In this document: in pieces, positions 6,095 through 62,588 of the stretch
Numbering within the stretch: position 1 is the first letter of the stretch
Layout of the letters: the number at the start of each line of letters is the position of its first letter
DNA from: Kocuria palustris
Lineage (GTDB): Bacteria > Actinomycetota > Actinomycetes > Actinomycetales > Micrococcaceae
DNA: 64,000 nt
Reading direction: 5' to 3'
Assembly (NCBI RefSeq): GCF_007666205.1
Contig: NZ_VDOR01000012.1
Location: 1 to 64,000, forward strand
The notes under the pieces: model-generated
Database searches by the model: none
Seen by the model: only the letters and a program-made list of their open reading frames with translations
Told to the model about the DNA's origin: nothing
Translations under genes and position numbers: made by a program

Positions 6095-6099
6095 GATCG

Positions 6100-7793: not shown

Positions 7794-7839
7794 GCACCTC
7801 GTCTGCCGGGGAGGGGCGGGCGCGGCGGAGACGAGGTGC
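7794..7839 (-). promoter_or_regulatory. Inverted repeat covering the dctP ribosome-binding site
   Basis: On the minus strand GCACCTCGTCT (7839-7829) and AGACGAGGTGC (7804-7794) form a perfect 11-bp stem around a 24-nt C-rich loop. The second arm contains the Shine-Dalgarno GAGG and abuts the ATG. In mRNA this would hide the ribosome site; as DNA it could be an operator. Confidence 0.65.
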
Positions 7840-8825: not shown

Positions 8826-8843
8826 CCCGCTCGGCGATCGCGG

Positions 8844-8875
8844 ACGGCCCCAGGTCAGCATCGGCCTGGGGCCGT
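8844..8875 (+). terminator. Hairpin between the DUF4242 gene and the acyl-CoA dehydrogenase-like gene
   Basis: ACGGCCCCAGG (8844-8854) pairs with CCTGGGGCCGT (8865-8875) around a 10-nt loop, with no T-run. It could partly terminate transcription so that the small first gene is expressed more strongly than the rest. Confidence 0.6.
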
Positions 8876-8927
8876 TCGCCGCCCGGCACCCGCCGCGTCG
8901 TCATCCGCCCCGTCCCGGAAGGAACCC

Positions 8928-10759: not shown

Positions 10760-11937
10760 TGACGGGCCGGGATCTGACCCGCCGCCGCCTGCTCGGCGCG
10801 GGCGCGGCCGGGCTGGGGCTGACGGGGCTGGCCTGGGGCGCCGGCTCGGCCTACACCTCCGCGCGCGAGCAGACCCTGGCCTCGGCGGATCCGTCCACGC
10901 CCGTGCGGGTGGGGTACCTGCCGATCACCGATGCGACCCCGCTGCTGATCGGGCACGCCAACGGCTACTACGAGCAGGCCGGGGTCCCGGTCGAGGCGCC
11001 GGTGCTCTTCCGCAGCTGGTCGTCGCTGGCCGAGGCCTTCCTGGCGGGTCAGGTCGACGTCATCCACCTCCTGATGCCCATGGCCCTCTACATGCGCTAC
11101 GGCCTGGAGGCCGACGTGCGGATCACCGCCTGGAACCACACCAACGGCTCGGCGCTGACCGTGCGCCCCGACGTCCCGGACCTGCAGGGCCTGGCCGGCG
11201 AGTCGATCGCGATCCCGGCCTGGTGGTCCGTGCACAACGTGGTCGTGCAGAAGATGCTGCGCGGTGCCGGGCTCACCCCGATCATGCGCCGCACCCCCTC
11301 GGCCGGCGAGGGGACCGTGCAGCTGCTGCCCATGGCCCCGGCGGACATGCTCCCGGCGCTGAACAACGGGGTGATCGGCGGCTACACGGTCGCCGATCCC
11401 TTCAACGCGGCCGCCGAGGCGCAGTCCGTGGGCGGGATCCGGCGCTTCCTGGGCGACTCGTGGCGCGATCACGTGTGCTGCGTGACCATGATGCGCGGGG
11501 ACCTGCTGCGCCGGCGCCCCGAGCAGGCCGCCGGGTTCATGGACGGGCTGGTCCGCGCCCAGGCCTGGTCGCGCGGCAACCGCCCGGAGGCCGCCGCGAT
11601 CCTGGCCGAGCGCTACCTCCCGCAGCCGCGGCCGGTGATCCTCACGGCCCTGACCCACGACCAGGCCCACGCCGAGGTCACGGTCCACCCGCCCTGGCAC
11701 GGCGAGCGCATCGACTTCCGCCCCTGGCCCTTCGCCTCGACGACCGAGCTGCTGGTGCGCTCCATGCAGGAGACCGTGGTCGACGCGCCGTCCGACTTCC
11801 TGCAGGGACTGGATCCGGCCCGGGCCCACGAGGAGCTGGTCGACGACCGGCTGGTCCGTGAGAGCATCCGACGAGCCGGGGGGCTCGAGGCCTTCGGCCT
11901 GTCCTCGACCGAGCGCACCGAGGAGTTCAGCGCATGA
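10759..11937 (+). CDS. ABC transporter substrate-binding protein, Tat-exported (SsuA/NMT1-like)
   Basis: The 392-residue periplasmic-type binding protein of the importer. A twin-arginine signal is evident: RDLTRRRLLGAGAAGLGLTG (residues 4-23). The body has NMT1/SsuA-like segments, such as VRVGYLPITDATPLLIGHANGYYEQAGVPVEA-type (written in part) and DVIHLLMPMALYMRYG. There is no lipobox Cys after the hydrophobic stretch, so it may be released or signal-anchored. Tat export implies folding, perhaps with a bound cofactor or metal, before secretion. The start shares one base with the previous stop. Confidence 0.9.
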   Translation: MTGRDLTRRRLLGAGAAGLGLTGLAWGAGSAYTSAREQTLASADPSTPVRVGYLPITDATPLLIGHANGYYEQAGVPVEAPVLFRSWSSLAEAFLAGQVDVIHLLMPMALYMRYGLEADVRITAWNHTNGSALTVRPDVPDLQGLAGESIAIPAWWSVHNVVVQKMLRGAGLTPIMRRTPSAGEGTVQLLPMAPADMLPALNNGVIGGYTVADPFNAAAEAQSVGGIRRFLGDSWRDHVCCVTMMRGDLLRRRPEQAAGFMDGLVRAQAWSRGNRPEAAAILAERYLPQPRPVILTALTHDQAHAEVTVHPPWHGERIDFRPWPFASTTELLVRSMQETVVDAPSDFLQGLDPARAHEELVDDRLVRESIRRAGGLEAFGLSSTERTEEFSA

Positions 11938-12860
11938 GCAGCACGGCACCCGGCCCCGGCAGGAGCACGGACCTCGACGACGACCGCCCCGCCTCCGCCT
12001 CCGCCTCCCGCGGGCGGAGCGCAGGCACGGGCGAGGACGCCTCCGCCGCGGACCTCGATGCCCAGGGCCGCCGCGGCCCGGTGCGCCGCCGCCGCGCCCC
12101 GCAGGGCCCGTCCCGGGCCGTGCGCTGGGGCTGGGGGCTGTTCGGGCTCATCGTCACGATCGCGGTGTGGTGGGCGTTCACCCATGCGGCGGCCGGTGCG
12201 AACTCCATGATCGCGGCCTTCCAGCCCGAGCGCCTGCCCGGCGCGATCGGCTCGCTGTGGGAGCGCGGCGTGATCCTGCAGGACACCGCCACGAGCCTGT
12301 GGCGGCTGATCTGCGGGATGGCGATCGCAGCGGCCGTCGGCTTCCCGCTGGGGCTGCTGATCGGCTCCTCCGCCCGGTTCCGGTGGTCGTCGACGCCTCC
12401 CGTCCAGTTCCTGCGCATGGTCTCGCCGCTGTCCTGGGCGCCTGTCGCGGTGGCCCTGTTCGGCGTGGGGCACGCGCCCGTGATCTTCCTTGTCGCGATC
12501 GCGGCGATCTGGCCGGTCGCCATGAACACGGCCTCCGGCGTGGCCGCCCTGGATCCGCTGCACCTCCAGGTGGCCCGCACCCTGGGGGCCACCCGCCCCG
12601 AGATCCTGCGCACCGTCGTGCTGCCGAGCATCCGCCCGTTCACGATGACGGGCGTGCGGCTGGCCCTGGGCATCGCGTGGGTGGTCATCGTCCCCGCCGA
12701 GATGCTCGGCGTCTCCTCGGGACTGGGCTACGAGATCCTCAACGCCCGCGACCGCCTCGCCTACGACGAGATGCTCGTCGTCATCCTGGTCATCGGGCTC
12801 ATCGGCATCGCCCTGGACTCACTGGCCCAGTGGATCCTGCGCGACCGCTCGCGGGGCTGA
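11934..12860 (+). CDS. ABC transporter permease (SsuC/TauC-like)
   Basis: The membrane subunit of the same importer, 308 residues. A long polar N-terminus (about 1-60, rich in Asp, Arg, Ala) precedes about six TM helices. The EAA-type cytoplasmic loop that contacts the ATPase is seen as ARTLGATRPEILRTVVLPSIRP. The start overlaps the binding-protein stop by ATGA, completing an order of flavoprotein-ATPase-binding protein-permease. Confidence 0.92.
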   Translation: MSSTAPGPGRSTDLDDDRPASASASRGRSAGTGEDASAADLDAQGRRGPVRRRRAPQGPSRAVRWGWGLFGLIVTIAVWWAFTHAAAGANSMIAAFQPERLPGAIGSLWERGVILQDTATSLWRLICGMAIAAAVGFPLGLLIGSSARFRWSSTPPVQFLRMVSPLSWAPVAVALFGVGHAPVIFLVAIAAIWPVAMNTASGVAALDPLHLQVARTLGATRPEILRTVVLPSIRPFTMTGVRLALGIAWVVIVPAEMLGVSSGLGYEILNARDRLAYDEMLVVILVIGLIGIALDSLAQWILRDRSRG

Positions 12861-43559: not shown

Positions 43560-44822
43560 TCAGTCCCCGAGCGTGGGCAGCCCGGCCCCGCTCCACGACG
43601 ACAGCCCGCCGTCGAGATGCCGGATCCGGCGCGAGATGCCCGCCGACTCGTCGGCGGCGCGCAGCAGGCTCAGCGCCTCGGCGGAGCGGATCCCCGCCTG
43701 GCAGTGCAGGACGAGGTCCCCGCACCCCGCCAGCGCGTCAGCGGCCTGCCCGGCAGTGAACTCCCCCAGCGGCATCGACCGGGCGCCGTCGATGCGCTCG
43801 AGCCGGTGCTCCCAGGGCTCGCGCACGTCCACGAGCTCGAAGGCCGCGCGGCCCGCCCGGCGCTCGCGCAGCAGCGCGTCGAGCTGCCGGGGGCTCACCA
43901 GGTCGGGGTCGGCGGCAGCGGCTTCCGCCGTCTCGTCACCCGGCGCACCGCTCGACGCTCGAGCGACGGGCGGCGGCCCCGGGGCGGCGGGCGCTGCGGG
44001 GTAGCCGTCGCGGAGGGGGTCCGCGAACGGCGACATGCGCGTCACGGGCGCCGCATCCAGCGATCGTCGCAGCGGGATCTGGGTCCATGTGCCGTCGAGC
44101 CCGTCGCAGATCGAGACCCGGCCCAGCAGCGGCGTCCCGACCCCCATGATCAGCTTCATGGTCTCCATCGCCAGGGCCGAGCCCAGCATGCCGGGCAGCG
44201 CTCCGAGCACCCCTGCTTCCGCGCAGCTCGGCACCGATCCGGGCTGCGGCGGCACCGGGTGCAGGTCGCGGTAGGTGGGGCCGTGCTGCGCCCAGAACAC
44301 CGAGGCCTGCCCGTCGAAGCGCAGGATCGAGCCCCACACGTGCGGCAGGCCCGCGATCTCGCAGGCATCGGAGACGACGTAGCGGGTCGCGAAGTTGTCC
44401 GACCCGTCGATCACCACATCGCAGCCGCCCACGAGCTCCAGAGCGCTGCCGGCCTCGATCCGCTCCCGGTGCTCGATCACGCGGACGTCGGGGTTCAGCT
44501 CCCGGATCCGGGCGGCGGCCGAGGCGGTCTTGGCCCTGCCTATGCCGCCCGCGGCATGGATGACCTGGCGCTGCAGATTCGACAGCTCGACGGCGTCGTC
44601 GTCCACGATCCCCACGGTCCCCACCCCGGCGGCCGCGAGGTAGAGCAGGGCCGGGGAGCCGAGGGCGCCGGCCCCGATGCACAGCACCCGGGCGGCGCGC
44701 AGGCGCCGCTGCCCGAGCTCGCCGATCTGGGGCACGCGCAGATTGCGGGCGTAGCGGCGCAGCTCGTCCGCACTGAGCTCCGGGCCGGGCTCGACCAGGG
44801 GCGGGAGGCCCTCGGCGCTCAC
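43560..44822 (-). CDS. moeZ: ThiF/MoeB adenylyltransferase with rhodanese domain (MoeZ-type)
   Basis: Activates the C-terminal glycine of MoaD (and related carriers) by adenylation, and supplies sulfur through its rhodanese domain. 420 residues. The E1-like domain (about 15-265) has nucleotide motif CIGAGALGSPALLYLAAAGVG and LSNLQRQVIH. The rhodanese domain (about 320-415) has active-site Cys in HCQAGIRSAEAL. The two zinc CxxC pairs of E. coli MoeB are absent, while PSCAEAGVLG, typical of actinobacterial MoeZ, is kept. Starts by GTGA overlap with the mog-moaE gene. Confidence 0.9.
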   Translation of the reverse strand: MSAEGLPPLVEPGPELSADELRRYARNLRVPQIGELGQRRLRAARVLCIGAGALGSPALLYLAAAGVGTVGIVDDDAVELSNLQRQVIHAAGGIGRAKTASAAARIRELNPDVRVIEHRERIEAGSALELVGGCDVVIDGSDNFATRYVVSDACEIAGLPHVWGSILRFDGQASVFWAQHGPTYRDLHPVPPQPGSVPSCAEAGVLGALPGMLGSALAMETMKLIMGVGTPLLGRVSICDGLDGTWTQIPLRRSLDAAPVTRMSPFADPLRDGYPAAPAAPGPPPVARASSGAPGDETAEAAAADPDLVSPRQLDALLRERRAGRAAFELVDVREPWEHRLERIDGARSMPLGEFTAGQAADALAGCGDLVLHCQAGIRSAEALSLLRAADESAGISRRIRHLDGGLSSWSGAGLPTLGD

Positions 44823-45949
44823 AGATTCACCCACTGGCTGCCGCCGTCGCCCAGATGCTGCTCCTTCCAGATCGGGACGGCCGCCTTGATCCGGTCCACG
44901 AGCTCGTCGCAGGCCTCGAACGCCGCCTTGCGGTGCGAGGCGCCCACGGCCACCTCCATGGCGGAGTCGCCGACGGACAGGTGACCGATGCGGTGCGCCG
45001 CCGCGATCCGCAGGCCGGGGCGGGCGTCGGCGATCTCCTGGCAGGCGGCTCGCAGCGCGTCGGCGGCCTGCGGGTGCGCGGTGTAGTCGAGGGAGGCGAC
45101 CTCGCGTCCGCCGTCGTGGTCGCGCACGATGCCGCTGAACCCGACGACCGCGCCCACGGTCCGCGCCGCCGCGAGCGCGCGGACGCCGACGGGGTCCAGG
45201 GGCTGGTCCGTGACCCAGGAGTCGACGACCGCGGAGGGCGCCAGATCGGCGGGGTGATCGCCCTGCCGGCCCGAGGGCTGGAACCCGCCGTCGGCGGGGA
45301 CGACCGCCGCCGCGTCCGACGGGGACCCGCTCGACGGGATCGTGCCCGGCGTCTGCGCGCCGGCAGGGACGGCCGGCGCCCGGGATGCCTCGGGCTTCGA
45401 GTGCCCCGCGTTCCGATCGCCCTCGAGCTGATGCAGGATGTGCTCGAGCAGCGGGAGGATCACGGCCATCCCGTCCTTCACCCCGCCGCGCGAGCCCGGG
45501 AGGTTCACCACGAGCGTGCGCCCGGAGACGCCGGCCAGACCGCGGGAGAGCACCGCGGTGCGCACGCTGCGCAGCCCCTCGGCCCACAGCGCATGCACGA
45601 TCCCGGGCAGCTGCAGATCGAGCAGCTCGGCCGTGATCTCGGGGGTGCGGTCATCGGGCATCACCCCCGTGCCGCCCGAGGTCACGAGCAGGTCGGGGCG
45701 CTCGTCCGCCGGCAGCTCCCGCAGCCGGCGGTGCAGCTCCCGGCGCAGGGGCTCGCCGTCGGCCACCACGATCGGGTCCGGACAGTCCAGGCCGGCTGCG
45801 CGCAGCAGCTCCACGCCGGCCGGCCCCGCGGTGTCCTGATAGGTGCCCGCGGCCGCCCGGGTCGAGGAGACGACGACCACCGCTCGGCGCGGCGGCAGCT
45901 CGGGATCCCGCTGCCCCCAGGGCCTCGTGCGCTCGGACGTCGGGCTCAT
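44819..45949 (-). CDS. Mog-MoaE fusion protein (molybdenum cofactor synthesis)
   Basis: 376 residues with two enzyme domains. Residues about 20-175 are a MogA/MoaB-type molybdopterin adenylyltransferase ([35 protein letters not shown]). A disordered linker (about 176-237) is followed by MoaE, the large subunit of molybdopterin synthase (about 238-376; [34 protein letters not shown] with Lys355 and Lys362 matching the catalytic lysines). It thus joins sulfur insertion into the pterin with later adenylation. ATGA overlap with moaC. Confidence 0.92.
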
Positions 45950-46467
45950 GGCTGCGGCTCCTCTCGTCTCCAGTCGCCCGACTTGCCGCCGGACTTGGCC
46001 GTCACGCGGATGCCGCCGATCTCGGCATGCCGGTCCACCGCCTTGATCATGTCGTACAGCGTCAGCACGGCCACGGAGACCGCGGTCAGGGCCTCCATCT
46101 CCACTCCGGTCACGCCGCGGGTCCGCACGCTCGCCCGCAGCCGCACCTCGGTCTCGCCCCGCTCGAAGTCGACGGCGACCTGGGAGATCGGCAGCGGGTG
46201 GCACAGCGGGACCAGGTCCGGGGTGCGCTTGGCCGCCATGATGCCGGCCACGCGCGCGACGGGCAGCGCATCGCCCTTGGGCAGATCGGCCGCGAAGATC
46301 ATGGCGATCACATCGGGGCGCGTGCTCAGCCGCGCCTCGGCGGCGGCTTCCCTCGAGGTCTCGGCCTTCGCGGAGACGTCGACCATGTGCGCCGATCCAT
46401 CGGCCCGCACGTGGGTCAGTCCCCCTGCCGGCCCGGTCTCCTCCGGGTGATGCTGCTCATCGCTCAT
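45946..46467 (-). CDS. moaC: Cyclic pyranopterin monophosphate synthase accessory protein MoaC
   Basis: Converts the MoaA product into cyclic pyranopterin monophosphate in step one of cofactor synthesis. 173 residues. [29 protein letters not shown] and [22 protein letters not shown] are the family hallmarks. Ribosome site AGGAGAG precedes the ATG. First gene of the moaC, mog-moaE, moeZ unit. Confidence 0.95.
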
Positions 46468-46636: not shown

Positions 46637-47878
46637 TCAGGCGGCCGCGACCCGGCGCTCGTCGATCCGGCCGCCGTTGCGCAGCACGAGGGCCACGAGC
46701 AGCCCCAGGACGCAGAACAGGGCCAGCAGCATCAGCCCGATGAAGTAGGAGTTGTGCTCCGGGCTGTAGGTCGCTCCCATGACCAGCGGCGGGAAGTAGC
46801 CGCCCAGGCCGCCGGCGGCCGCGATCACGCCCGAGACGGTGCCGACGGTCCGCGAGTCCGAGGCCCGGGAGACCCAGGCGAACACGCCGCCGGTGCCCAG
46901 GCCCAGGAACACGGCCATGATCAGGAACAGCGGGCCGTAGACGAACTCGTGCGAGGGCTGGAAGGCGATGATCGTCGCAAGGACGGCACCGCCGACGTAG
47001 GCGGTGATCGAGACGACCCTGGGCCCGAGCTTGTCGGCCAGGGTGCCGCCGATCGGGCGGGCGATCACGGCCGCCAGCGCGAAGCCGGCGGTGCGGGTCC
47101 CGGCCTCGGTGGCCGCGTAGCCGTAGACGTTGCCGAGGTAGGTCGGCAGGTAGTTGGAGAAGGCCACGAACGCGCCGAAGACGATCGCGTACATGAAGCA
47201 CAGCATCCAGGTCTCCTTCAGCGCGAAGGCGGCCTTGAGCTTGGGCATCATCGGCGTGGGCTCGAGCCCGCGGCGCGTGGGCGACTCGCGCAGCAGCAGC
47301 CAGCAGATCGCGGCCGTCGCCGCGACGAGCACGGCGATCAGCACGTGGGCGCCCATGTAGCCCATGCCGCTGACGATGCGCGGGGTCACGAAGGCCGAGA
47401 CGGCCGTTCCGGCCATGCCGGCGCCGAACACGCCGGTCGCGAATCCCTTGCGGTTGGCCTCGTACCAGGCGGAGCAGAACGGGATGCCGATCGCGAAGAC
47501 GGTGCCCGCGATGCCCAGGAAGAACGAGACGAGGACGAGCAGGCCGAAGCTGTTCATCCGGCCCACGAGCGCCGTGAGCAGCACGAGCGGGGCGGTGATG
47601 CCCAGGATCGCGGTGAACATGACGCGCCCGCCGTAGCGGTCGGTCAGGGCGCCGACCGGGACGCGGGCCACCGATCCCACCAGGATCGGCATGGCCACGA
47701 GGATCGAGGTCTGCCCCGCGCTCAGGTCCATGGCCTCGGAGTACCGCGAGGACAGCGGCCCGATGATGGTCCAGGCCCAGAAGCCCATGACCGAGGCCAG
47801 GGTGGCGATGATGAGGTTGCGGGTCTGGCCGGCCTTCATCTCGGCGTCGACGGACGCCCGGGTGTCCGGAGAGGACAT
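46637..47878 (-). CDS. narK: Nitrate/nitrite transporter NarK
   Basis: MFS protein of 413 residues, 12 TM, for nitrate uptake and/or nitrite export in nitrate respiration. The N-terminal [22 protein letters not shown], the loop [16 protein letters not shown] and the nitrate signature-like [37 protein letters not shown] (cited in part) are typical. ATG 47878 has AGGAG 7 nt upstream; an in-frame upstream ATG gives only seven more residues. Lies downstream of narI beyond a strong hairpin. Confidence 0.92.
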
Positions 47879-47982: not shown

Positions 47983-48792
47983 TCAGCGCCGCCCGGCGGA
48001 GCTCGGCTGGCGGGGCTGCCGCTTGGGCCGCTGGGCGCCGGAGGGCGCGCGGTCCTGCGTGCCGATCGGGTCCCAGCCGCGGCGGACCGGCGCGTGGCCC
48101 GTGGTGCGGCCCCGGTCGCGGGAGCGGTACACGATGTACGGGCGGAACAGGTAGTGCACGGGCGCGGTGAACGCGTGGATCAGCCGGGTGAAGGGCCAGG
48201 CGATGAACAGCGCGAAGGCGAAGAGCACGTGGACCTTGAACGACGGCGACGACGCGGCCATGGCCCCGATGTCCGGCTGCAGGATCCAGATCGAGCGGAA
48301 CCACGGGGAGACGGTCTCGCGGTAGTTGACCACCGTGTGGTCGAAGACCGAGATCAGGGTCGTGGCCAGGCCGGCCAGCAGGGCCAGGACCAGCAGCACG
48401 TACATGAGCTTGTCGTTGGCGGTCGTGGCCATGAACACCGGGCCGGTGGTGCGACGGCGGTAGATCAGCAGAGCGATCCCCACGAGGGTGCCGAAGCCCG
48501 CGAACAGCCCGATCGTCAGCGCCATGATGTGGTACATGTGCTCGGTCACGCCGGCGGCGTCGGTCCAGGACTTGGGGATGACCAGGCCGACGATGTGCCC
48601 GATCAGCACCGCCAGGATCCCGAAGTGGAACAGCGGCGAGGCGATCCGCAGCAGCTTGCCCTCGTAGAGCGACGACGAGCGGGTGGTCCACCCGAACTGG
48701 TCGTACTTGTAGCGCCAGATCGTGCCGCCGATGAAGATCAGCAGCACCACGTAGGGCAGCACTCCCCAGAGGAGGATGTCGATGAGGTTCAT
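47983..48792 (-). CDS. narI: Respiratory nitrate reductase subunit gamma (cytochrome b)
   Basis: Membrane di-heme cytochrome b that takes electrons from menaquinol and feeds NarH. 269 residues, five TM helices. Heme-ligand histidines are expected in LFHFGILAVLIGHIVGL (helix 2), TEHMYHIMALTIGLF and HVLFAFALFIAWPFTRLIHAF. A basic C-terminal tail (about 230-269) is longer than in E. coli NarI (225 residues in all). ATG 48792 fits MNLIDILLWGVLPYV. Confidence 0.93.
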   Translation of the reverse strand: MNLIDILLWGVLPYVVLLIFIGGTIWRYKYDQFGWTTRSSSLYEGKLLRIASPLFHFGILAVLIGHIVGLVIPKSWTDAAGVTEHMYHIMALTIGLFAGFGTLVGIALLIYRRRTTGPVFMATTANDKLMYVLLVLALLAGLATTLISVFDHTVVNYRETVSPWFRSIWILQPDIGAMAASSPSFKVHVLFAFALFIAWPFTRLIHAFTAPVHYLFRPYIVYRSRDRGRTTGHAPVRRGWDPIGTQDRAPSGAQRPKRQPRQPSSAGRR

Positions 48793-48799
48793 GGCGGCG

Positions 48800-49627
48800 T
48801 CAGTCCCTGGAGGTCGAGGAGGCGGCGGCCTCGCGGCGGTGGGAGGGGGCACAGCCGGCCGCGGTGTGCGCGGCCGTGGGGTGTGAGGCGGGATCCACGG
48901 GGACGGCGCCCGCCCGTCCGCCGGTCATCCCGGAGGCCGAGGCGTCGGACAGCGGGAGCAGCCTCGGATCGAAGGGCTGCAGGCCGACGGTCTCGGTGGG
49001 CGGCCCGTAGCCGGCCATCCTCATGACGGCGTCGCGGTCCTCGGGGGAGGCTCCGGGAAGCGTGGTGCACACGAGCTCGACGATCCCCAGATGCGGCAGG
49101 TCGTCGTCCTGCAGCGCCAGGCGCAGCAGCTCGAGCGAGGGCCGGTAGCGCTGGAGCAGCTCGGCGCCGTCGTCGGGGGCCACCAGGGCGGCGAACTCGA
49201 GCACCACCGGCAGATGATCCGGCAGCTCCGCGTCGTCCAGGCGGTAGCCGTGCTCCGCGTAGAGGGCCTTGAACGACAGCAGCGACTCGCCCCGGCGGCG
49301 GGTGTCGCCGTCGGTCCAGTACGTCAGGTGGAAGCTGTGCCGGCGGGAGAGGTCGTACTCCTGCACCCAGTCGCCCTGGATCTCGGACAGCGGCTTGGAG
49401 AGCATCCACCGCTCGATCCGATCGACCGGCGCGGTGTCCGCCCCGACCTCCGCGAGCGCGGCGCGGATCTGGGGGATCCGCTCGAGCAGCTCGCGGTCCG
49501 GGTAGCCCAGCAGCAGCGCGGCCGACTGGCGCACCACGGCGGAGCGCTGGGGGTCGCGGTCCTTCCACGGCTTCGTCTCGACCGTCCCCTTGCCGCCGAG
49601 GCCGAAGATCCTGGCCAGCAGGCTCAC
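48800..49627 (-). CDS. narJ: Nitrate reductase molybdenum cofactor assembly chaperone NarJ
   Basis: Cytoplasmic chaperone that holds NarGH during cofactor insertion and is not part of the final enzyme. 275 residues. LLLGYPDRELLERIPQI, YDLSRRHSFHLTYWTDGDTRRRG and PDHLPVVLEFAAL follow the NarJ/TorD pattern. About 60 extra hydrophilic residues at the C-terminus. Starts GTG overlapping the narH stop (GTGA). Confidence 0.92.
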   Translation of the reverse strand: MSLLARIFGLGGKGTVETKPWKDRDPQRSAVVRQSAALLLGYPDRELLERIPQIRAALAEVGADTAPVDRIERWMLSKPLSEIQGDWVQEYDLSRRHSFHLTYWTDGDTRRRGESLLSFKALYAEHGYRLDDAELPDHLPVVLEFAALVAPDDGAELLQRYRPSLELLRLALQDDDLPHLGIVELVCTTLPGASPEDRDAVMRMAGYGPPTETVGLQPFDPRLLPLSDASASGMTGGRAGAVPVDPASHPTAAHTAAGCAPSHRREAAASSTSRD

Positions 49628-51315
49628 GAGGCCCCTCCCTTCGACCCGCCGGCCGGGGTGTCGGCGCGGTCGGGGAACAGGCCGTACGGCGTGCCGTTGC
49701 CGTCCCAGTTCAGGAGGTTGACCCGGCCGGCCATCTCGGAGGCATCGGCGGGGGCGTCGGCGGTCTGCCGCGCCTTGAGCGCCGCGAAGTTCTCGACGGC
49801 CACCGGCATGGGCTTGCCGGAGGCCTCGCCCAGCCCGCCCATCTGGCCCATGCCCGGGCCGCCGTCGCCGTCCAGGGAGCAGCCCATCTCCTCGAGGTTG
49901 TGGGCGTCCTCGGTGTGGGCGGTGGGGATGACGTAGCGCTCCGAGTACTTGGCGATCGCCATGAGCCGGTACATCTCGTACATCTGCGAGCCCGTCATGC
50001 CCACGGCCCGCGCGATCGACTCGTCGGCCTGGTCGCCGAGCGTGATGTCGCGCATGTACGAGCGCATGGCCGCGAGCTTGCGCAGCACGTCCGTGATGAT
50101 CCCGGTGTCGCCTGCCGTGAACAGCTCCGCGAGGTACTCGACGGGGATGCGCAGCGAGTCGATCGCGCCGAAGAGCACGTCGATGTCCTGGCCGTCGTGG
50201 CCCTGCGAGGAGAGCAGGTCCACGATCGGCGACAGCGGCGGGACGTACCAGACCATGGGCATGGTGCGGTACTCGGGGTGCAGGGGCAGCGCGACCCGCA
50301 GCTCCTTGGCCAGCTTGTAGACCGGCGACCTCCGGGCGGCGTCCATCCAGTCGTCGGGGATGCCGTCGGCGCGGGCCTGGCGCTGGACCTCGGGGTCGTT
50401 CGGGTCGAGCATGAGGTCGAGCTGGGCCTCGTAGAGGTCCTACTCGTCGGGGGTCGCGGCGGCCTCGGTGACGCGGTCGGCGTCGTAGAGGAAGATGCCG
50501 ATGTAGCGCATGCGCCCCACGCAGGTCTCGGCGCACACCGTCGGGATGCCGACCTCCACGCGGGGGTAGCAGAACGTGCACTTCTCGGCCTTGCCGGTCT
50601 TGTGGTTGTAGTAGATCTTCTTGTACGGGCAGCCGGTGATGCACTGGCGCCAGCCGCGGCACTGGTTCTGATCCACCAGCACGATGCCGTCCTCGGAGCG
50701 CTTGTAGATCGCCCCGGACGGGCACGCCGCCATGCAGGACGGGTTCAGGCAGTGCTCGCAGATGCGCGGCAGGTGGAACATGAACGTCTTCTCGAAGTCC
50801 ATCTTCACGCGGTCCTCGGAGTCCCGGCGCAGCTTCTGCAGGACGGGGTCCTCGCGCTCCGTGGCCTCGACGCCGCCCAGGGAGTCGTCCCAGTTCGCGG
50901 ACCACTCGACCTTGGTGTCCTGGCCCGTGATCAGCGACTTGGGCTTGGCCACCGGGAAGTCGTCGGAGGCCGGGGCCGAGACGAGGTTCTCGTAGTCGTA
51001 CGTCCAGGGCTCGTAGTAGTCGTCCAGGTGGGGCTGGACGGGCGAGGAGAAGATCCCGAAGAGCTTCTGCAGCCGGTTGCCCGACTTGAGCTGCAGGTTG
51101 CCGCGGCGGTTGAGCATCCAGCCGCCGCGCCACTTCTCCTGGTCCTCGTAGCGGCGCGGATAGCCCTGCCCGGGGCGGGTCTCCACGTTGTTGAACCAGA
51201 CGTACTCGGTGCCGGCGCGGTTGGTCCACGCCTGCTTGCAGGTCACGGAGCACGTGTGGCACCCGAGGCACTTGTCGAGGGTCATGACCATCGCGGTCTG
51301 AGCCATGATGCGCAT
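49624..51315 (-). pseudogene. narH: Nitrate reductase beta subunit, interrupted by in-frame TAG
   Basis: Electron-transfer subunit with four Fe-S clusters. The reading frame 51315-49624 would encode 563 residues, but codon 292 (50442-50440) is TAG. On both sides the protein matches NarH without a frame change: AAATPDE before, DLYEAQLDL and LDPNDPEVQRQ after. E. coli NarH has Lys (NEKDLYQ) at this point, so a single change such as AAG to TAG explains it. All cysteine clusters (16/19/22/26 and the three later groups) are in the first 291 residues. The lost part (codons 293-563) contacts NarG/NarI. Re-initiation at ATG 50412 would make a 262-residue fragment. A sequencing error or read-through remains possible. 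The narH ATG shares one base with the narG stop. Confidence 0.9.
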
Positions 51316-54300
51316 CAGTACTGGACCTCCTGCGAGCGCTTGCGGACGACGGATGTGACGTCCCGGTTGTTGCCGGTCGGGCCGTGGTAGTTGAAGGCCC
51401 AGGACTGCTGGGCGTAGCCGCCGACCATGTGGGTGGGCTTGAGCATGATCCGGGTGACCGAGTTGTGGATGCCGCCGCGGCGGCCCGTGGCCTCGGACTT
51501 GGGGACGTCGATCGTGCGCTCCTGCGCGTGGTGGACGAACACCGCCCCGGCCCGCATGCGGTTGGTGACGATCGCGCGGCCCACGAACACGCCGTTGCTG
51601 TTGACGCACTCGACCCAGTCGTTGTCCCGCACGTCGATCAGCGCGGCGTCCTGATCGGACATCCACACCGAGGTGCCGCCGCGGGACAGCGAGAGCATGA
51701 ACAGGTTGTCCTGGTACTCCGAGTGGATCGACCACTTGTTGTGCGGGGTCAGGTAGCGCACGGCCACCGACAGCTCGCCCCGCTCCCCGAGCCGGGGCTC
51801 CCCGAACAGCGCCGCGTTGTTCAGCGGCGGCCGGTAGGTCGGGAGGTTCTCGCCCATCTCCGACATCCAGTCGTGGTCCAGGAAGAAGTGCATGCGCCCG
51901 GTCAGGGTGTGGAACGGCTTGAGCCGCTCGATGTTCACCGTGAAGGGCGCATAGCGCCGACCGCCGGTCTCCGAGCCGGACCACTCCGGGGAGGTGATGA
52001 CCGGCACCGGGGCGGCCTGGGTGTCGGCGAAGGTGATCTTCTTCTCCTCCGAGCCCAGCGCGAGGTCGTGCAGCTGCTTGCCCACGCGCTTCTCGAGGGT
52101 CTTGAAGCCCTGGACCGCCAGCTCGCCGTTCGTGGTCCCGGACAGGGCCAGGATGGCCTCGGCCATGCGGGCGTCGGTGTCCAGGGCCGGGCGGCCCTCC
52201 GCGGCCCCGGAGTCGTAGACGCCGTGCTTGCGGCCCAGCGAGTCGACCTCGTGGCTGACGTCGAACGTGACGTTCTTGGTGGTCAGCCCGAGCTTGTCGG
52301 CCAGGGGCCCGAGGGCCACGAACTTGTCGCCGATGGCCGTGTAGTCGCGCTCGACGATCTTGAGGTTCGGGAAGTTCTTCCCGGGCACGGCCGGCAGGTC
52401 CGTGCCGCGCCACTCGGGGGCGTGCCCGCCGGGCTGGTTGATCTGGCCCGGGGTGTCGTGGGTGATCGCGGTGGCCACGAGGTCGCGGCGGGTGTCCAGG
52501 CGCCCCTTGGACAGGCGCGAGACCTCGTCGGAGAGCAGCCGGAACAGCTCGTGGTCCGTCTTGGCCTCCCACGGCGGGGTGATCGCCGGGTTGAAGGCGT
52601 GGACGTACGGGTGCATGTCCGTGGAGGAGAGGTCGAACTTCTCGTACCAGGTGGCGGCCGGGAAGACGACGTCGGAGAGCAGCGTCGACGACGTCATGCG
52701 GAAGTCCGCCGAGACCAGCAGGTCGAGCTTCCCCTCCGGCGCCTCGTCGTGCCACTTCACGTCGCGCGGCTTGTGGTCCACGTGATCGGAGCCCAGGACG
52801 TTGTGGTGCGTGCCCAGCAGGTGCTTGAGGAAGTACTCCTCGCCCTTGGCCGAGGAGCCCAGCAGGTTGGAGCGCCACAGCACGAGCGTGCGCGCCCAGT
52901 TCTCGGGGGCGTCCGGATCCTCGACGGCGAACTGCAGCCTCTCCGCCTTGGCCTGATCCGCGATCCACTGCGCCTCGGACTCGGCCTCCCCGCGCTCGAC
53001 GGCCGCGACCGCGGCATCGGCCACGTCGAGCGGGTTCTGCGTGAACTGCGGGTAGAACGGCATCCATCCCAGGCGCGTGGACTGCGCCACGACGTCGGCC
53101 GTGTGCATGCCCTTGAGGTGGCCCTTGGCCAGCGGCGACTGCAGGTGCGCCGAGGAGTGGCCGTCCTGGCGGAACTGGTCGGTGTGCAGGTACCAGAACG
53201 CGGTGCCGATCATGAACCGGGGCGGGCGGCTCCAGTCGCCGGCCGAGGCCATCGTGGCCCAGCCGGTGATGGGACGGGCCTTCTCCTGGCCCACGTAGTG
53301 CGCCCAGCCGCCGCCGTTGCGGCCCTGGCAGCCGCACAGCATGATCATCGCGAGGATCGCCCGGTACGTGACGTCGCCGTGGTACCACTGGCACAGCCCG
53401 CCGCCCAGGATGATCATCGAGCGGCCCTCGGAGCGCTCGGCATTGGCCGCGAACTCGCGCGCCACGCGGATGGCGGCCTCGGCCGGCACCGAGGACACCG
53501 CCTCCTGCCACGCGGGGGTGTAGGCGGTCTCGGCGTCGTCGTAGCCCTGGGACCACTGCCCCGGCAGGCCGTCGCGCCCGACCGAGTACTGGGCGAGCAT
53601 CAGGTCGAAGACCGTGGTGACGGTCTTCCCGGCGACCGTGCGGGTCGGCACGCCGCGGCGGACCACGGTGCCCTCGCCGGAGGCCTCGACGAAGGCCGGC
53701 AGCGAGATCTCGGCGGCCGCCCCGTCCCAGTCGCCGAGGTCCATGATCGACAGCGCCGGGTCGTGGCCCTCGAGGTCCAGGTTCCAGTCGCCCTCGTCCT
53801 GGGCGTTGTAGCGGAAGCCCATGGAGCCCTTGGGGATGAACGCCTCGCTCGTTCCGCGCTCGAGCATCACGGTCTTGAAGGCGGGATCCGCCTGCTGCGA
53901 GCCGAGGTCCTGCGCGGTGAGGAACTTCCCGGGCACGAGCTGCCCGTCGTCGCTGCGGGTGAGCGTGACCAGGAACGGGAGGTCGGTGAACTGCTTGACG
54001 TAGCCCTCGAAGAACGGGGTGCGCTTCTGGACGAAGTGCTCCGTGAGGATGACGTGGCCCATGCTCATGGCCAGGGCGGCGTCCGAGCCGGGCTGGGCGG
54101 GCAGCCACTCGTCGGCGAACTTCGTGTTGTCGGCGTAGTCCGGGGACACCGAGACGACCTTGGTGCCGCGGTAGCGGACCTCCGCGACCCAGTGGGCGTC
54201 CGGGGTGCGGGTCACGGGGATGTTCGAGCCCCACATCATGAGGTAGGTGGCATCCCACCAGTCGCCGGACTCCGGGACGTCGGTCTGATCGCCGAAGACC

Positions 54301-55055
54301 TGCGGGGAGGCCACGGGCAGGTCCGCGTACCAGTCGTAGAAGCTGTTCATCACGCCGCCGATGAGGTTGATGAACCGGGCGCCGGCGGCGTGGGAGACCA
54401 TCGACATCGCGGGGATCGGCGAGAAGCCGACGCAGCGGTCGGGGCCGTACGCGCCGATGGTGTGCACGTGCGCGGCCGCGGTCATCTCGACGGCCTCCTG
54501 CCACGACGCCCGCACCAGACCGCCCTTGCCGCGGCTGCGCTGGAAGGCGCGGCGCTTCTCCGGGTCGTTCACGATCGACGCCCAGGCCGCCACGGCATCG
54601 CCGCCGTGGGCCGCGCGCGCCTCGCGGTACATCTCGAGCAGGACGCCGCGCACATAGGGGTAGCGCACGCGGGTGGGCGAGTACGTGTACCAGGAGAAGG
54701 CCGCGCCGCGGGGGCAGCCGCGGGGCTCGTACTCCGGGCTGTCCGGGCCGACGGACGGATAGTCGGTCTCCTGGGCCTCCCAGGTGATGATCCCGTCCTT
54801 GACGTAGACCTTCCACGAGCAGGAGCCGGTGCAGTTCACGCCGTGGGTCGAGCGCACGACCTTGTCGTGGCTCCAGCGGTTGCGGTAGAAGGCGTCGCCC
54901 GCGCGGCCGCCCTCGCGGAACTCCGCACGGCCGTCCGGGGTCTGCTCCCGGCGGGTGAAGAAGCGCCCCGTCTTCAGCAGCGCCTGGGAGGCGGGCCCGT
55001 CGACCCCCGCCGGTGCGGACGCGGCATGCGCCCCGGAACTCGTATTCGTGCTCAT
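51315..55055 (-). CDS. narG: Respiratory nitrate reductase alpha subunit
   Basis: Catalytic subunit reducing nitrate to nitrite at a bis-MGD molybdenum centre, on the cytoplasmic side of the membrane. 1246 residues, the normal size. FS0 cluster ligands are His71, Cys75, Cys79 (STHGVNCTGSCSWK) and Cys114 (PRGCPRG). Mo ligand Asp245 lies in WYADLPVASP. There is no twin-arginine signal beyond the vestigial N-terminus usual for NarG. Starts at ATG 55055, 6 nt after a TAGCCT box (leaderless type). An FNR/CRP-like dyad lies about 92 bp upstream. Confidence 0.96.
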   Translation of the reverse strand: MSTNTSSGAHAASAPAGVDGPASQALLKTGRFFTRREQTPDGRAEFREGGRAGDAFYRNRWSHDKVVRSTHGVNCTGSCSWKVYVKDGIITWEAQETDYPSVGPDSPEYEPRGCPRGAAFSWYTYSPTRVRYPYVRGVLLEMYREARAAHGGDAVAAWASIVNDPEKRRAFQRSRGKGGLVRASWQEAVEMTAAAHVHTIGAYGPDRCVGFSPIPAMSMVSHAAGARFINLIGGVMNSFYDWYADLPVASPQVFGDQTDVPESGDWWDATYLMMWGSNIPVTRTPDAHWVAEVRYRGTKVVSVSPDYADNTKFADEWLPAQPGSDAALAMSMGHVILTEHFVQKRTPFFEGYVKQFTDLPFLVTLTRSDDGQLVPGKFLTAQDLGSQQADPAFKTVMLERGTSEAFIPKGSMGFRYNAQDEGDWNLDLEGHDPALSIMDLGDWDGAAAEISLPAFVEASGEGTVVRRGVPTRTVAGKTVTTVFDLMLAQYSVGRDGLPGQWSQGYDDAETAYTPAWQEAVSSVPAEAAIRVAREFAANAERSEGRSMIILGGGLCQWYHGDVTYRAILAMIMLCGCQGRNGGGWAHYVGQEKARPITGWATMASAGDWSRPPRFMIGTAFWYLHTDQFRQDGHSSAHLQSPLAKGHLKGMHTADVVAQSTRLGWMPFYPQFTQNPLDVADAAVAAVERGEAESEAQWIADQAKAERLQFAVEDPDAPENWARTLVLWRSNLLGSSAKGEEYFLKHLLGTHHNVLGSDHVDHKPRDVKWHDEAPEGKLDLLVSADFRMTSSTLLSDVVFPAATWYEKFDLSSTDMHPYVHAFNPAITPPWEAKTDHELFRLLSDEVSRLSKGRLDTRRDLVATAITHDTPGQINQPGGHAPEWRGTDLPAVPGKNFPNLKIVERDYTAIGDKFVALGPLADKLGLTTKNVTFDVSHEVDSLGRKHGVYDSGAAEGRPALDTDARMAEAILALSGTTNGELAVQGFKTLEKRVGKQLHDLALGSEEKKITFADTQAAPVPVITSPEWSGSETGGRRYAPFTVNIERLKPFHTLTGRMHFFLDHDWMSEMGENLPTYRPPLNNAALFGEPRLGERGELSVAVRYLTPHNKWSIHSEYQDNLFMLSLSRGGTSVWMSDQDAALIDVRDNDWVECVNSNGVFVGRAIVTNRMRAGAVFVHHAQERTIDVPKSEATGRRGGIHNSVTRIMLKPTHMVGGYAQQSWAFNYHGPTGNNRDVTSVVRKRSQEVQY

Positions 55056-57635: not shown

Positions 57636-58904
57636 TCAGAGCAGCCGGACCTCCACGGGGGCTCCGGCGGGCACCACGCCCTCCCCCGGCTCGAGCACGA
57701 TCAGGGCATCGGCCAGGGCCGCCGTGGCCAGCAGGTGGGATCCGTGCCCGCCGAGCTGCTGCGCTCGCCGCCCGTCCCAGCGCGCGCGCAGCACCCGGGT
57801 CCGGCCCGGCAGCCGCTCGAGGTCCGCGGCCGCCGGCGCCGTGAGCCTCCGGGGCTCCGCCGCGCCGGCCCCCGCCGCCGCGAGCGCCGGCCGCAGCAGG
57901 ATCTCGGTCGAGACCCAGGTCGAGACGGGATTGCCGGGCAGGCACACGACTGCAGTGCCCTCGAGCATCGCGAGCCCCTGCGGACCGCCGGGCTGCAGGC
58001 CCACATGCAGGAACTCGCCGTCCGCATCCGAGAGCACCCGTCGCACGACCTCGAAGGCGCCCTCGGAGATGCCTCCCGAGGTGACCCACAGATCCGGGGC
58101 CCCGAAGCTCTCGGAGCCGAGCAGACGCCGGAGGCCGTCATCGTCGTCGGTCACGTGCCGCGCGGCGACGACCTCGAGACCCAGGCGCTCCAGCTGGGCG
58201 CGCAGCAGCGCGGCATTGGCGTTGTAGATCTGGGCCCCCGAGGCTTCCTGCCCCGGCTCCACGACCTCATCGCCCGTCGTCAGGATGCCGACGCGCAGCC
58301 GCGGGCGCACGAGGACGCGCTCGAGGCCGAGTCCGGCGATCGCCCCGAGCGCGATCGGGCTCAGGAGCGCCCCCGCGGGGGCCACGACCTGTCCCCGGGC
58401 CACGTCCTCGCCGGCCCGGCGCACGAAGCGGCCCGGCTCCTGCCCGGCGGGAAGCCGCACGGTGGCCCCCTCGGGAAGGAACTCCGAAGGCAGGGCCTCC
58501 TCGATCGGCACGACGGCATCGGCCCCGGGCGGGATCGGGGCGCCCGTCATCACCGGTGCGGCGCCGGAGCCCGGCAGCGGTGCGGGCTCGTGCCCCGCGG
58601 CCCCCGCCGCGCCGGCGGTGGAGACGACCATGGCCACCGTCCCGGCGGTGCTCGGGCCGCGGGTGTCGGCTGCGCCGACCGCGTACCCGTCCATCTGGGA
58701 GTTGTCGAAGGGCGGCAGGGGCATCGGGGCGGTGACATCCGCCGCCAGAACCCGTCCGGCGGCGCGGGCGAGCTCGAGCTCCTCCGGCTCCCGTGCAGCC
58801 CAGCGGCTGCGTCCGATCAGATCCCGGATCGCCGCGACGTGCTCGGCGATGCCGCGCGTCCGGTGGCCGTGACCGCTCCCCTGAGCCTGGCCGTGTCCCG
58901 TCAT
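57636..58904 (-). CDS. moeA: Molybdopterin molybdotransferase MoeA
   Basis: Inserts molybdate into adenylylated molybdopterin. 422 residues. Family motifs are PPFDNSQMDGYAV near residue 83, the GAPIPPGADAVVPIE segment, ILTTGDEVVEPGQ, IYNANAALLRAQL, VTSGGISEGAFEVV and VCLPGNPVSTWV. ATG 58904 is downstream of a TAGCCT box; the ATG at 58967 lies upstream of that box and is rejected. Divergent from moaA. Confidence 0.92.
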   Translation of the reverse strand: MTGHGQAQGSGHGHRTRGIAEHVAAIRDLIGRSRWAAREPEELELARAAGRVLAADVTAPMPLPPFDNSQMDGYAVGAADTRGPSTAGTVAMVVSTAGAAGAAGHEPAPLPGSGAAPVMTGAPIPPGADAVVPIEEALPSEFLPEGATVRLPAGQEPGRFVRRAGEDVARGQVVAPAGALLSPIALGAIAGLGLERVLVRPRLRVGILTTGDEVVEPGQEASGAQIYNANAALLRAQLERLGLEVVAARHVTDDDDGLRRLLGSESFGAPDLWVTSGGISEGAFEVVRRVLSDADGEFLHVGLQPGGPQGLAMLEGTAVVCLPGNPVSTWVSTEILLRPALAAAGAGAAEPRRLTAPAAADLERLPGRTRVLRARWDGRRAQQLGGHGSHLLATAALADALIVLEPGEGVVPAGAPVEVRLL

Positions 58905-58956
58905 GCCGCTGCCCTCTCCCGCTGCCTCGCGTCCGCCCCGCCTCCACGACAAGTCC

Positions 58957-58996
58957 AGGCTACTCATGCGGACGGGCTTCCCACGGCCGCTAGCCT
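58957..58996. promoter_or_regulatory. Divergent moeA / moaA promoter pair
   Basis: TAGCCTGG occurs on the minus strand (58962-58955, for moeA) and on the plus strand (58991-58998, for moaA), back to back with 28 bp between the -10 boxes. The upstream elements must overlap, suggesting joint control of both cofactor units. Confidence 0.5.
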
Positions 58997-59081
58997 GGGA
59001 GCACGCCCCGGCGGGCGGCGCGGCCCGCCGGACTCCCGGCCGCCGCTCGGCGGCGCGACGACACGGAACGAGGTGGGCACC

Positions 59082-60203
59082 ATGGCGACCGCACTCGGGA
59101 TGCCGGGGCTGCGCACGCGGCTCGATCCCTCCCCCGCGGACCCGGCCGAGGGCCTGGTGGACCGGTTCGGCCGCCGGGCCGTCGACCTGCGGATCTCCCT
59201 GACCGACAAGTGCAATCTGCGCTGCACCTACTGCATGCCCGCCGAGGGGATGGACTGGCGGCCCTCCTCCGAGCTGCTCACCGCGCACGAGATCCGCCGC
59301 CTCGTGCGCATCGGCGTGCGGCATCTGGGCATCTGCGAGCTGCGGCTGACCGGCGGCGAGCCGCTGATCCGCCCGGATCTCGAGCAGATCATCGCCGGGG
59401 TGCGCCAGGATCACCCCGAGCTGCCGATCTCGATCACCACCAATGCGATCGGACTGGACCGGCGCGCGGCCCGGCTCGCCGCCGCCGGGCTGACCCGGCT
59501 CAACGTCTCCCTGGACACGCTCGAGCGCGAGACCTTCGCGGCCATGGCCCGCCGCGACCGCCTGCCCCAGGTCCTGGCCGGGATCGAGGCCGCCCAGGCG
59601 GCAGGGCTCGACCCCGTCAAGATCAACGCCGTCCTGCTGCGCGGGGTCAACGACCACGGGGCCGCCGATCTGCTCGAGTGGAGCCTGGAGCAGGGCCTCC
59701 AGCTGCGCTTCATCGAGCAGATGCCGCTGGACGCCGACCGCTCCTGGACGCGCCGGGGCATGATCACCGCCGCCGAGATCCGCGAGCTGCTGGGCGCCCG
59801 CTTCCGGCTCGATCCCCGGCCGGCCCCGCGCGCCGGGGCCCCCGCGGAGCTGTGGGACGTGCGGGCGCCGGATGCCGACCCGAGCAGCGCCCCGCTGGGG
59901 ACCGTGGGCATCATCGCGTCCGTGACCGAGCCGTTCTGCGGCGACTGCCGCCGCACCCGGCTGACGGCCGAGGGCGAGATCCGCTCGTGCCTGTTCTCGC
60001 ACGAGGAGTTCGGCCTGCGCGACCTGCTGCGCGACGAGTCCCCCGCCGGCGAGCTGCCCGAGGACGAGGCCGACGCCCTGATCGCGCAGCGCTGGCGGGC
60101 CGCCATGTGGATCAAGCCCGCGGCCCACGGCATGGACCGCACGGGGCTCGGGGCGGACGGCTTCGTGCAGCCCGAGCGCTCGATGTCCGCGATCGGCGGA
60201 TGA
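59082..60203 (+). CDS. moaA: GTP 3',8-cyclase MoaA
   Basis: Radical-SAM enzyme for the first step of molybdopterin synthesis from GTP. 373 residues. N-terminal [4Fe-4S] cysteines 44, 48 and 51 (CNLRCTYC) and the C-terminal cluster set FCGDCRRTRL...SCLF are intact, as is the LTGGEPLIR motif. ATG 59082 has GAGGTGG upstream; an in-frame GTG three codons earlier is possible. The stop is 61 nt before moaD. Confidence 0.95.
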   Translation: MATALGMPGLRTRLDPSPADPAEGLVDRFGRRAVDLRISLTDKCNLRCTYCMPAEGMDWRPSSELLTAHEIRRLVRIGVRHLGICELRLTGGEPLIRPDLEQIIAGVRQDHPELPISITTNAIGLDRRAARLAAAGLTRLNVSLDTLERETFAAMARRDRLPQVLAGIEAAQAAGLDPVKINAVLLRGVNDHGAADLLEWSLEQGLQLRFIEQMPLDADRSWTRRGMITAAEIRELLGARFRLDPRPAPRAGAPAELWDVRAPDADPSSAPLGTVGIIASVTEPFCGDCRRTRLTAEGEIRSCLFSHEEFGLRDLLRDESPAGELPEDEADALIAQRWRAAMWIKPAAHGMDRTGLGADGFVQPERSMSAIGG

Positions 60204-60264
60204 CACGCTGCGTGCCGCCCGCGCGGACGGCTCCCACGACCACGATCGACACCGGAGGTGCGCC

Positions 60265-60555
60265 ATGGCGCTGACCATCAACTACTACGCCGCCGCCAAG
60301 GCCGCGGTCGGGCACGGCTCGGAGCAGCTCGACCATGCGGATCTGCCCCGCGACGACGACGGCCGCGTGACCCGCGGCGCCGTCGAGAACGCGCTGATCG
60401 CGGCCCACCCGGAGGCGCCGACCGGCCAGCAGCCGCTGGTCGAGGTGCTCCCGCGCTGCTCGTTCCTGCTCGACGGCCAGGCCTGCCCCGAGCCCGATCA
60501 GCAGATCCCCGACGGCTCCGCCCTCGATGTCCTGCCGCCCTTCGCCGGGGGCTGA
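60265..60555 (+). CDS. moaD: MoaD/ThiS-family sulfur carrier
   Basis: Small ubiquitin-like subunit of molybdopterin synthase, 96 residues, ending in the required Gly-Gly (PPFAGG) that MoeZ activates and sulfurates. ALTINYYAAAKAAVG and GSALDVLPPFAGG match the family. AGGTG precedes the ATG. MoaE, its partner, is in the mog-moaE fusion. Confidence 0.9.
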   Translation: MALTINYYAAAKAAVGHGSEQLDHADLPRDDDGRVTRGAVENALIAAHPEAPTGQQPLVEVLPRCSFLLDGQACPEPDQQIPDGSALDVLPPFAGG

Positions 60556-60556
60556 G

Positions 60557-61231
60557 ATGGCGGACCGGGGCGGGACGGTCCCGCTGAGCGCGATCCTGGT
60601 GGCGGGCGGCCGCTCCTCCCGGCTGGGCGGGACGCCCAAGGTCCTCCTGCGCCCGCGCGAAGGCGAGGCCCGCACCCTCGTGGAGACCGCCGTGGACGGG
60701 CTGCTCGGGCTCGGCCTGCCGCCCGAGCGGGTCGTCGTCGTGGGCCCGCCGGGGCTGCCCCTGCCGGAGCGGGTGCGGCGGACCCGGGAGGAGCCGCCCT
60801 TCTCCGGCCCGGCCTCCGCTCTGGCCGCGGGCGCGGCGGCCCTGAGCGCCTCGCCTCCCGGGCCCGCGGCCGCCGGCGCCTGGACGCTGACGCTGGCCTG
60901 CGACATGCCCCGCTGCCGCGATGCCGCTCGGGCGCTGATCGAGGCAGTCGAGGAGATCGAGGCGGCCGAGGCCTCCACCGATGATCCGGGCGGATCCGGG
61001 CCGCCGCGCGGGATCGTGCTGCGGGACCGCGGCATCGTCCAGCCCCTGGCCGCCGCCTACCGCTCGTCGGCCCTCGAGGAGCGGCTGGCGGCGCAGCCCG
61101 TCGTCGACCGCTCCGTGCGCGGGGTGCTGGGCCCGCTGTGGAACCGGGAGCGGGAGGTCGGGGGCCTGACCGACGATGTCGACACATGGGACGATGTGAG
61201 CAGGTTCGGGCTCGTGCCCGGACAGGACTGA
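60557..61231 (+). CDS. mobA: Molybdenum cofactor guanylyltransferase MobA-like
   Basis: Adds GMP to the cofactor to form the guanine dinucleotide used by NarG. 224 residues. Nucleotide-binding LVAGGRSSRLGGTPKVLL near the start and ACDMPRC (metal-binding Asp) near residue 115 are conserved. Begins one base after the moaD stop. A MobA/MocA alternative (cytidylyl) is less likely beside narG. Confidence 0.88.
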   Translation: MADRGGTVPLSAILVAGGRSSRLGGTPKVLLRPREGEARTLVETAVDGLLGLGLPPERVVVVGPPGLPLPERVRRTREEPPFSGPASALAAGAAALSASPPGPAAAGAWTLTLACDMPRCRDAARALIEAVEEIEAAEASTDDPGGSGPPRGIVLRDRGIVQPLAAAYRSSALEERLAAQPVVDRSVRGVLGPLWNREREVGGLTDDVDTWDDVSRFGLVPGQD

Positions 61232-61238: not shown

Positions 61239-62588
61239 ATGCCCGAGCAGCAGAAGACCCCCGCCGCCCTCCGCCGCCCCGACTGGGCGACCGCCCGCCA
61301 GGCGGCCTATGACGTCGCAGCACCGCTTCCGCCGCACTGGCTCCCGCTCGAGGAGACCGTCGGGGAGACGCTGGCCGAGGATCTGCGCGCCGAGCGCCCG
61401 GTCCCCCACTACACCTCCTCCGCCATGGACGGGTGGGCCGTGCACGGCCCCGGCCCCTGGCGGATCAATCGCGGTCGGCTCGAGGAGGTGGACCAGCGGC
61501 TGGCATGGGCGCGCACCGAGGAGCCGCGGCTGGAGCCGGCGACGTCGATCGCCCCCGGGGAGGCCGCTCCGATCGTGACGGGCGGGCTGGTCCCGGAGGG
61601 AGCCACGGCGGTCCTGCGCTCGGAATGGGGCATCGAGGACGGGGAGCAGCTCGGGCTGAGCCCGCAGGCCCCCGAGGACGCCCCGCGGGAGGGGCAGCAC
61701 CTCCGCCGGGCCGGCAGGGAGGCCGAGACCGGGGAGCTGCTCATCCGCGCCAGGACCCGCCTGACCCCCGGCCACGTCGCCTTCGCGGCCACGACGGGCC
61801 AGGACATGCTCCCGCTGCTGCGCCGCCCGCGGGTGACCCTGCTGCTCACCGGCGACGAGGTCGACGAGGCCGGACTGCCCGAGCCGGGCCGGGTGCGCGA
61901 CGCCTTCGGCCCGCAGCTGCCGCAGTTCATCCACCAGCTCGGCGGACAGGTGGATGCCGCGCACCGGGTCGGCGACGACCGCGAGCAGATGCTCGAGCGG
62001 CTCTCCGGCAGCGCCACCGGGGCGGAGGGCCTCCTGGACTCCCGCGCGCACCTGATCATCACCACCGGCGGGACGGGCCGATCGACGGCCGATCATCTTC
62101 GCCCCTCGCTCGAGAGCAGCGGCGCCCAGCTGATCATCGACGAGCTCGGCCTGCGCCCGGGGCACCCGGCCCTGCTGGCCCGCATGCCCGACGACGGCCC
62201 GTACGTCCTGGGCCTGCCGGGCAATCCGCTGGCGGCCATGACCACCCTGATGCTGCTCGGCTCCGCCCTGCTCGCCGGGCTCGGCGGCAATGTCATCCCG
62301 CCGCTGACCGAGGTCGCCCTCACCCGGTCGCTGCCGGCCTCCACGACGGACCGCCTGGCACCGGGCCTGGCCTTCGTGGCCGGAGCCGCGGTCTCCGGGG
62401 CGACCATCACCGATCTGAGCGAGGGCGCCGCGGCGCGCGGGACGGAGCTGCCCAGCGCCGTGGCCCTGTCCCGGGCGGGCTCCGACGAGCTGCGCGGGTT
62501 CTCGCAGGCCAATGTGCTGCTGGTGATCCCCGCCGACGGGGTGCGACCGGGCGAGCCCGTCCAGGCCCTGCCGCTGCCCTGGCTGTGA
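61239..62588 (+). CDS. MoeA paralogue (molybdopterin molybdotransferase family)
   Basis: 449 residues, a second MoeA-like protein. TSSAMDGWAVHGPG, GEAAPIVTGGLVPEGATAVL, LLLTGDEVDEAG, ITTGGTGRSTADHL and LGLPGNPLAAMTTLMLLG follow the family, but the Asp/Asn before the Met in DNSQMDGYA is replaced (TSSAMDGW). It follows mobA by 7 nt. Might be a specialised isoenzyme or an assembly factor. Confidence 0.88.
   Translation: MPEQQKTPAALRRPDWATARQAAYDVAAPLPPHWLPLEETVGETLAEDLRAERPVPHYTSSAMDGWAVHGPGPWRINRGRLEEVDQRLAWARTEEPRLEPATSIAPGEAAPIVTGGLVPEGATAVLRSEWGIEDGEQLGLSPQAPEDAPREGQHLRRAGREAETGELLIRARTRLTPGHVAFAATTGQDMLPLLRRPRVTLLLTGDEVDEAGLPEPGRVRDAFGPQLPQFIHQLGGQVDAAHRVGDDREQMLERLSGSATGAEGLLDSRAHLIITTGGTGRSTADHLRPSLESSGAQLIIDELGLRPGHPALLARMPDDGPYVLGLPGNPLAAMTTLMLLGSALLAGLGGNVIPPLTEVALTRSLPASTTDRLAPGLAFVAGAAVSGATITDLSEGAAARGTELPSAVALSRAGSDELRGFSQANVLLVIPADGVRPGEPVQALPLPWL

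Follow-up and report, generated by a model that had tools for sequence, protein, structure and literature searches.

In the stretch of Kocuria palustris DNA analysed here (64,000 nucleotides, hereafter the window), the narH frame is interrupted by a single TAG, and the question is whether a working NarGHI nitrate reductase can still be made. A preliminary description of the locus had offered four options: a recent loss of nitrate respiration, an error in the base, read-through of the codon, or a subunit split in two. The first two of these stand as possible explanations, while read-through and the split subunit find no support in our analysis. The features that define the interruption are the following.

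49624–51315, minus strand: narH, a 563-residue frame with one in-frame TAG
50440–50442, minus strand: the in-frame TAG, narH codon 292
50443–51315, minus strand: narH 5′ part, 291 codons with 15 of the 16 Cys; matches TIGR01660 positions 1–288 with 483 bits
49624–50439, minus strand: in-frame 3′ part of narH; the ORF starting at ATG 50412 encodes 262 residues

When the TAG is read through, the NarH equivalog profile TIGR01660 aligns straight across it (741 bits against a cut-off of 524, with one TAG inside the match), and the whole-protein score places the product in the NarH family. The narGHJI gene context leads to the same assignment. Scored apart, the two parts reach 483 and 218 bits, each below the cut-off of 524; the second value is that of the 262-residue ORF (ATG 50412, stop end 49624), which covers profile positions 300–483. 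Escherichia coli NarH (1q16 chain B) resembles the Kocuria protein over aligned residues 1–488 and in the 15 Cys of the 5′ part, and differs in that the Kocuria frame is broken at codon 292. Its NEKDLYQ segment aligns opposite DE-stop-DLYE, with the stop opposite Lys. The preliminary description had placed the TAG at narH codon 292, had the stop replace this Lys, and gave the halves as 291 and 262 residues with an ATG at 50412; the profile match, the 1q16 alignment and the ORF coordinates agree with it on each point. Only Cys479 lies beyond codon 292. By analogy with E. coli NarH, we take the 15 preceding Cys to be Fe–S ligands, and the C-terminal half presumably binds NarG/NarI. The genome (a 2.82-Mb draft assembly in 61 contigs, 99.98% complete) contains a single NarH match and thus no second copy. 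A mis-framed ORF arising by chance is ruled out, because the frames on either side fall in the same protein family and a sister genome carries a sense codon at this site.

That sister (G010) is the nearest genome found. Its narH is open, with 94% protein identity on both sides of the site and a Lys in the stop column. Comparison with the same locus in relatives returned a sense codon in the sister and no stop at this column in any of 98 homologues (97 sense codons and one gap: K 32, Q 30, R 14, H 10, T 8, D 2, G 1, gap 1). Loci from the Kocuria genome itself, a frameshifted locus (G001), a partial one (G007) and loci with ferredoxin-like matches only were left out of this set, in which two entries (L008 and L035) probably represent a single locus. 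Since the column tolerates many residues, it is the stop, and not the residue, that matters. Relative to the intact homologues the stop is premature and in frame, as in a nonsense pseudogene. Across the family, 180 of 395 genomes match narH at E ≤ 1e-100. Four of the 150 family matches listed carry a stop, which in three (G004, G374 and G231) is a TGA at the natural C-terminal end; the only internal stop among those listed, which were screened for stop codons, is the one described here. Within the genus, all or part of narH is present in 18 of 27 genomes: the present one, G001 (frameshift), G007 (contig end) and 15 others. The remaining nine, one of them only 76% complete, have no NarH-grade match, so that absence of nar is common in the genus. 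The G001 locus (L118, contig G001:C44, about 7259–7280) carries a one-base frameshift, located a few codons 5′ of the homologous site. This frameshift is probably an assembly error, as that genome is 79% complete and in about 220 contigs. A disruption hotspot near codon 292 was considered and rejected, as two events do not make one.

The narH frame is embedded among the following nar genes.

51315–55055, minus strand: narG, open, 1246 residues; TIGR01580, 1548 bits
48800–49627, minus strand: narJ, open, GTG start
47983–48792, minus strand: narI, open; TIGR00351, 204 bits on the longer ORF 47983–48852
46637–47878, minus strand: narK-like MFS transporter gene, open

All four are open, in keeping with the earlier statement that narG, narJ, narI and narK look complete. 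The narG, narJ and narI genes match the sister over their full lengths (narG with 93.7% identity), and no decay is visible nearby. The narG stop and narH start codons overlap by one base, and the narH TGA and narJ GTG start by four bases. These overlaps make translational coupling likely, in which case the early narH stop would probably lower translation of narJ as well.

Genes for molybdenum-cofactor synthesis lie on both sides of the nar genes. The preliminary description counted at least seven that look complete; we find eight ORFs with the expected domains, the ThiS-family one barely above its cut-off.

45946–46467, minus strand: moaC
44819–46204, minus strand: ORF with MoaB/Mog and MoaE domains; the true start lies within the ORF
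43560–45587, minus strand: ORF containing a moeB-like ThiF–rhodanese gene; domains begin at residue 279 and the true start lies within the ORF
57636–60281, minus strand: ORF containing moeA; domains begin at residue 479 and the true start lies within the ORF
57735–60203, plus strand: ORF containing moaA; domain at residues 474–822, the true start lies within the ORF
60265–60555, plus strand: moaD-like gene, ThiS family, marginal (22.9 bits against a cut-off of 22.5)
60527–61231, plus strand: mobA-like NTP transferase gene
61239–62588, plus strand: second moeA/glp-like gene

The MoaB/Mog and MoaE domains are combined in one ORF, which has a full-length match in the sister at 72%. NarG is the sole PF00384 match in the genome, and profile searches of the genome with PF00174 and PF02738 gave no match. 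The cofactor gene set is kept though NarG is the only match among the three molybdopterin-oxidoreductase families searched, and, given those three families, NarGHI may be the sole client of the pathway. A full-length NirB match is located elsewhere in the genome.

Whether narH is decaying was approached through substitution patterns. Relative to the sister, dN/dS is 0.112 for the whole of narH, 0.104 before the stop, 0.065 for residues 293–499 and 0.254 for the last 58 codons, beside 0.136 for narG and 0.134 for narI. Polarized with five outgroups, the narH changes on the branch leading to this strain are 13 nonsynonymous to 10 synonymous, compared with 3:21 on the sister branch (p 0.002); the corresponding counts are 13:14 and 5:20 with four outgroups, and 11:9 and 3:21 with nine. 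For the four other nar genes together the ratios are 49:75 and 36:85 (p 0.14). Within the strain's own branch, narH (13:10) shows no difference from narG (25:41; p 0.15), nor from the other four nar genes combined (49:75; p 0.17). The four-outgroup list has 13 sites that changed on this branch, and for 11 of them the derived residue also occurs in other homologues. These counts amount at most to a hint of relaxed selection on narH, suggestive but unstable, with no clear decay. As narH has not clearly decayed, the stop would be young if the base is real.

We searched for comparable interruptions with a composition scan for in-frame stops, covering the whole window (64 kb) and a further 311 kb from other contigs (375 kb of the 2.82 Mb). 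The scan needs 80 codons on each side of a stop and may miss divided genes of unusual composition. It returned 36 matches, 10 of them within the window and the other 26 from the 311-kb sample; 30 had a lower GC1 than GC2 on one or both sides and were discarded as antisense shadows or frame changes. Among the six survivors narH is the only one in which the stop divides a single gene and family: the match at 21866 in the window is a gene boundary that is also present in the sister stretch, and the four remaining in the sample have different Pfam families on each side and are ordinary gene ends. A crude gene finder, which missed the sister narH and narK, called 73 ORFs in the sister, and 39 of these were matched to the window. 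No one-base frameshift was recognised among the 39. Two were flagged. One is a moeA ORF with an over-extended start that reaches into moaA; the other is a gene with two matched parts about 1 kb apart, at the edge of a stretch absent from the sister. In the opposite direction, five of 34 matched window ORFs meet stops in the sister, near one ORF end or in a long N-terminal extension (opposite residues 62 of 405, 6 of 545, 421 and 428 of 449, 82 of 997, and 16 and 168 of 192). Because a sister ORF matches the window without a stop for each of the five, we read these window ORFs as over-extended. None of the flagged genes or ORFs has the look of a disruption by a single base.

The explanation that we consider likely is a very recent ordinary nonsense mutation in narH. 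A point mutation would have changed codon 292 from sense to TAG, very recently on an evolutionary scale; translation would then end after residue 291, so that the Fe–S half of NarH is made and the C-terminal half is missing. The predicted outcome for the protein is that a working NarGHI is probably not assembled. We infer the reality of the base and, with it, a loss of respiratory nitrate reduction. This reading is supported by the presence of a single TAG in a frame that is otherwise 94% identical to that of the sister and by the single narH match. That the cofactor ORFs are still open, though NarG is the only PF00384 match, points to the recency of the change. The locus resembles known nonsense-mutation pseudogenes in its lone in-frame stop, its open neighbours, and the lack of a second copy and of visible decay. 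No feature of the Kocuria narH, taking the base as assembled, was found to differ from that class.

The main rival, and an unlikely one, is an error in the base call or consensus, or a minority variant of the sequenced culture, with the real narH intact. The intactness of everything else is equally expected under such an error: no other decay is visible in the operon, narH is the one gene in the scanned 375 kb that still counts as divided after filtering, and the genome is a draft in 61 contigs. Against it, the 39 genes matched to the sister give no sign of an error-rich assembly, and substitution errors are rare in a deep short-read consensus, a general expectation that may not apply to the technology used here. 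The outcome of the scan would fit either a genome with a handful of true nonsense mutations or a rare base error, and our preference for mutation over error comes from general consensus-error rates and not from data on this strain. The publications PMC4850849, PMC3916494 and PMC4611689 report neither a stop in narH nor a nitrate phenotype tied to the strain, and the same is true of the available portions of PMC12149201, PMC9584308, PMC12500396, PMC9241783 and PMC3856593.

It is highly improbable that active NarGHI is still made, whether by read-through that needs no dedicated suppressor or with NarH supplied as two chains via termination–reinitiation. Stop codons are recoded in nature by amber suppression and by pyrrolysine-type read-through, and narH resembles such cases in having an in-frame TAG with the frame and the protein conserved beyond it. 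TAG is also a minority stop codon here: the 163 composition-called genes of the 311-kb sample end in TGA (148), TAG (10) or TAA (5), and all 37 composition-called genes of at least 100 codons in the window, to which the narH 5′ part does not belong, end in TGA. The same counts, on the other hand, mean that TAG is in use as a terminator of other genes. The genome has 46 tRNA matches. ARAGORN names 41 of them, and the anticodons of the other five, all class II, were read by eye from the loop (GCU, CAG, GAG, GGA and CGA); one of the 46 is a second Glu-CUC tRNA, and a CUA anticodon occurs in none. The gene for release factor 1 is intact (444 bits, no stop). Unlike known recoded genes, the narH stop is conserved in none of the 98 homologues, and the 375-kb scan turned up no further gene split by an in-frame TAG. 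The RNA around the TAG folds with a z-score of −1.67 and the stop-free sister copy with −2.69; as the copy without a stop folds at least as strongly, there is no stop-specific RNA structure. Read-through at useful levels, yielding full-length NarH, accordingly seems very improbable. Translation of NarH as two chains, the second by reinitiation at ATG 50412, is more doubtful still and can be regarded as extremely improbable. The ATG lies 27 bases after the TAG, in principle near enough for reinitiation, and the break falls after the Fe–S ligand region. However, no well-placed Shine–Dalgarno sequence precedes this ATG, the nearest purine-rich motif being a GAGG about 14 bases before it, too far for the usual spacing, and its Met is an ordinary internal residue in the aligned relatives. 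A split conserved in relatives is likewise missing, none of the 98 homologues being stopped here and the Kocuria stop being the sole internal one among the 150 family matches listed, which were screened for stop codons.

The narH stop shows no new mechanism: it is most likely an ordinary loss-of-function mutation or a base-call error, and not a novel type of split or recoded enzyme. If the recent nonsense mutation is real, the locus would offer a snapshot of the first step of gene loss, with one visible break while the remaining genes of the pathway are undecayed, among them a molybdenum-cofactor set for which there may be no other client here. In that event, gene-presence calls (narG, narI and moa present) would wrongly predict nitrate respiration.

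The sister stretch is otherwise syntenic with the window, with one segment of about 7.8 kb (4672–12494) that has no match longer than 300 bases and represents either an insertion here or a loss in the sister. The gene at the right edge of this segment shares only its 3′ part with the sister.
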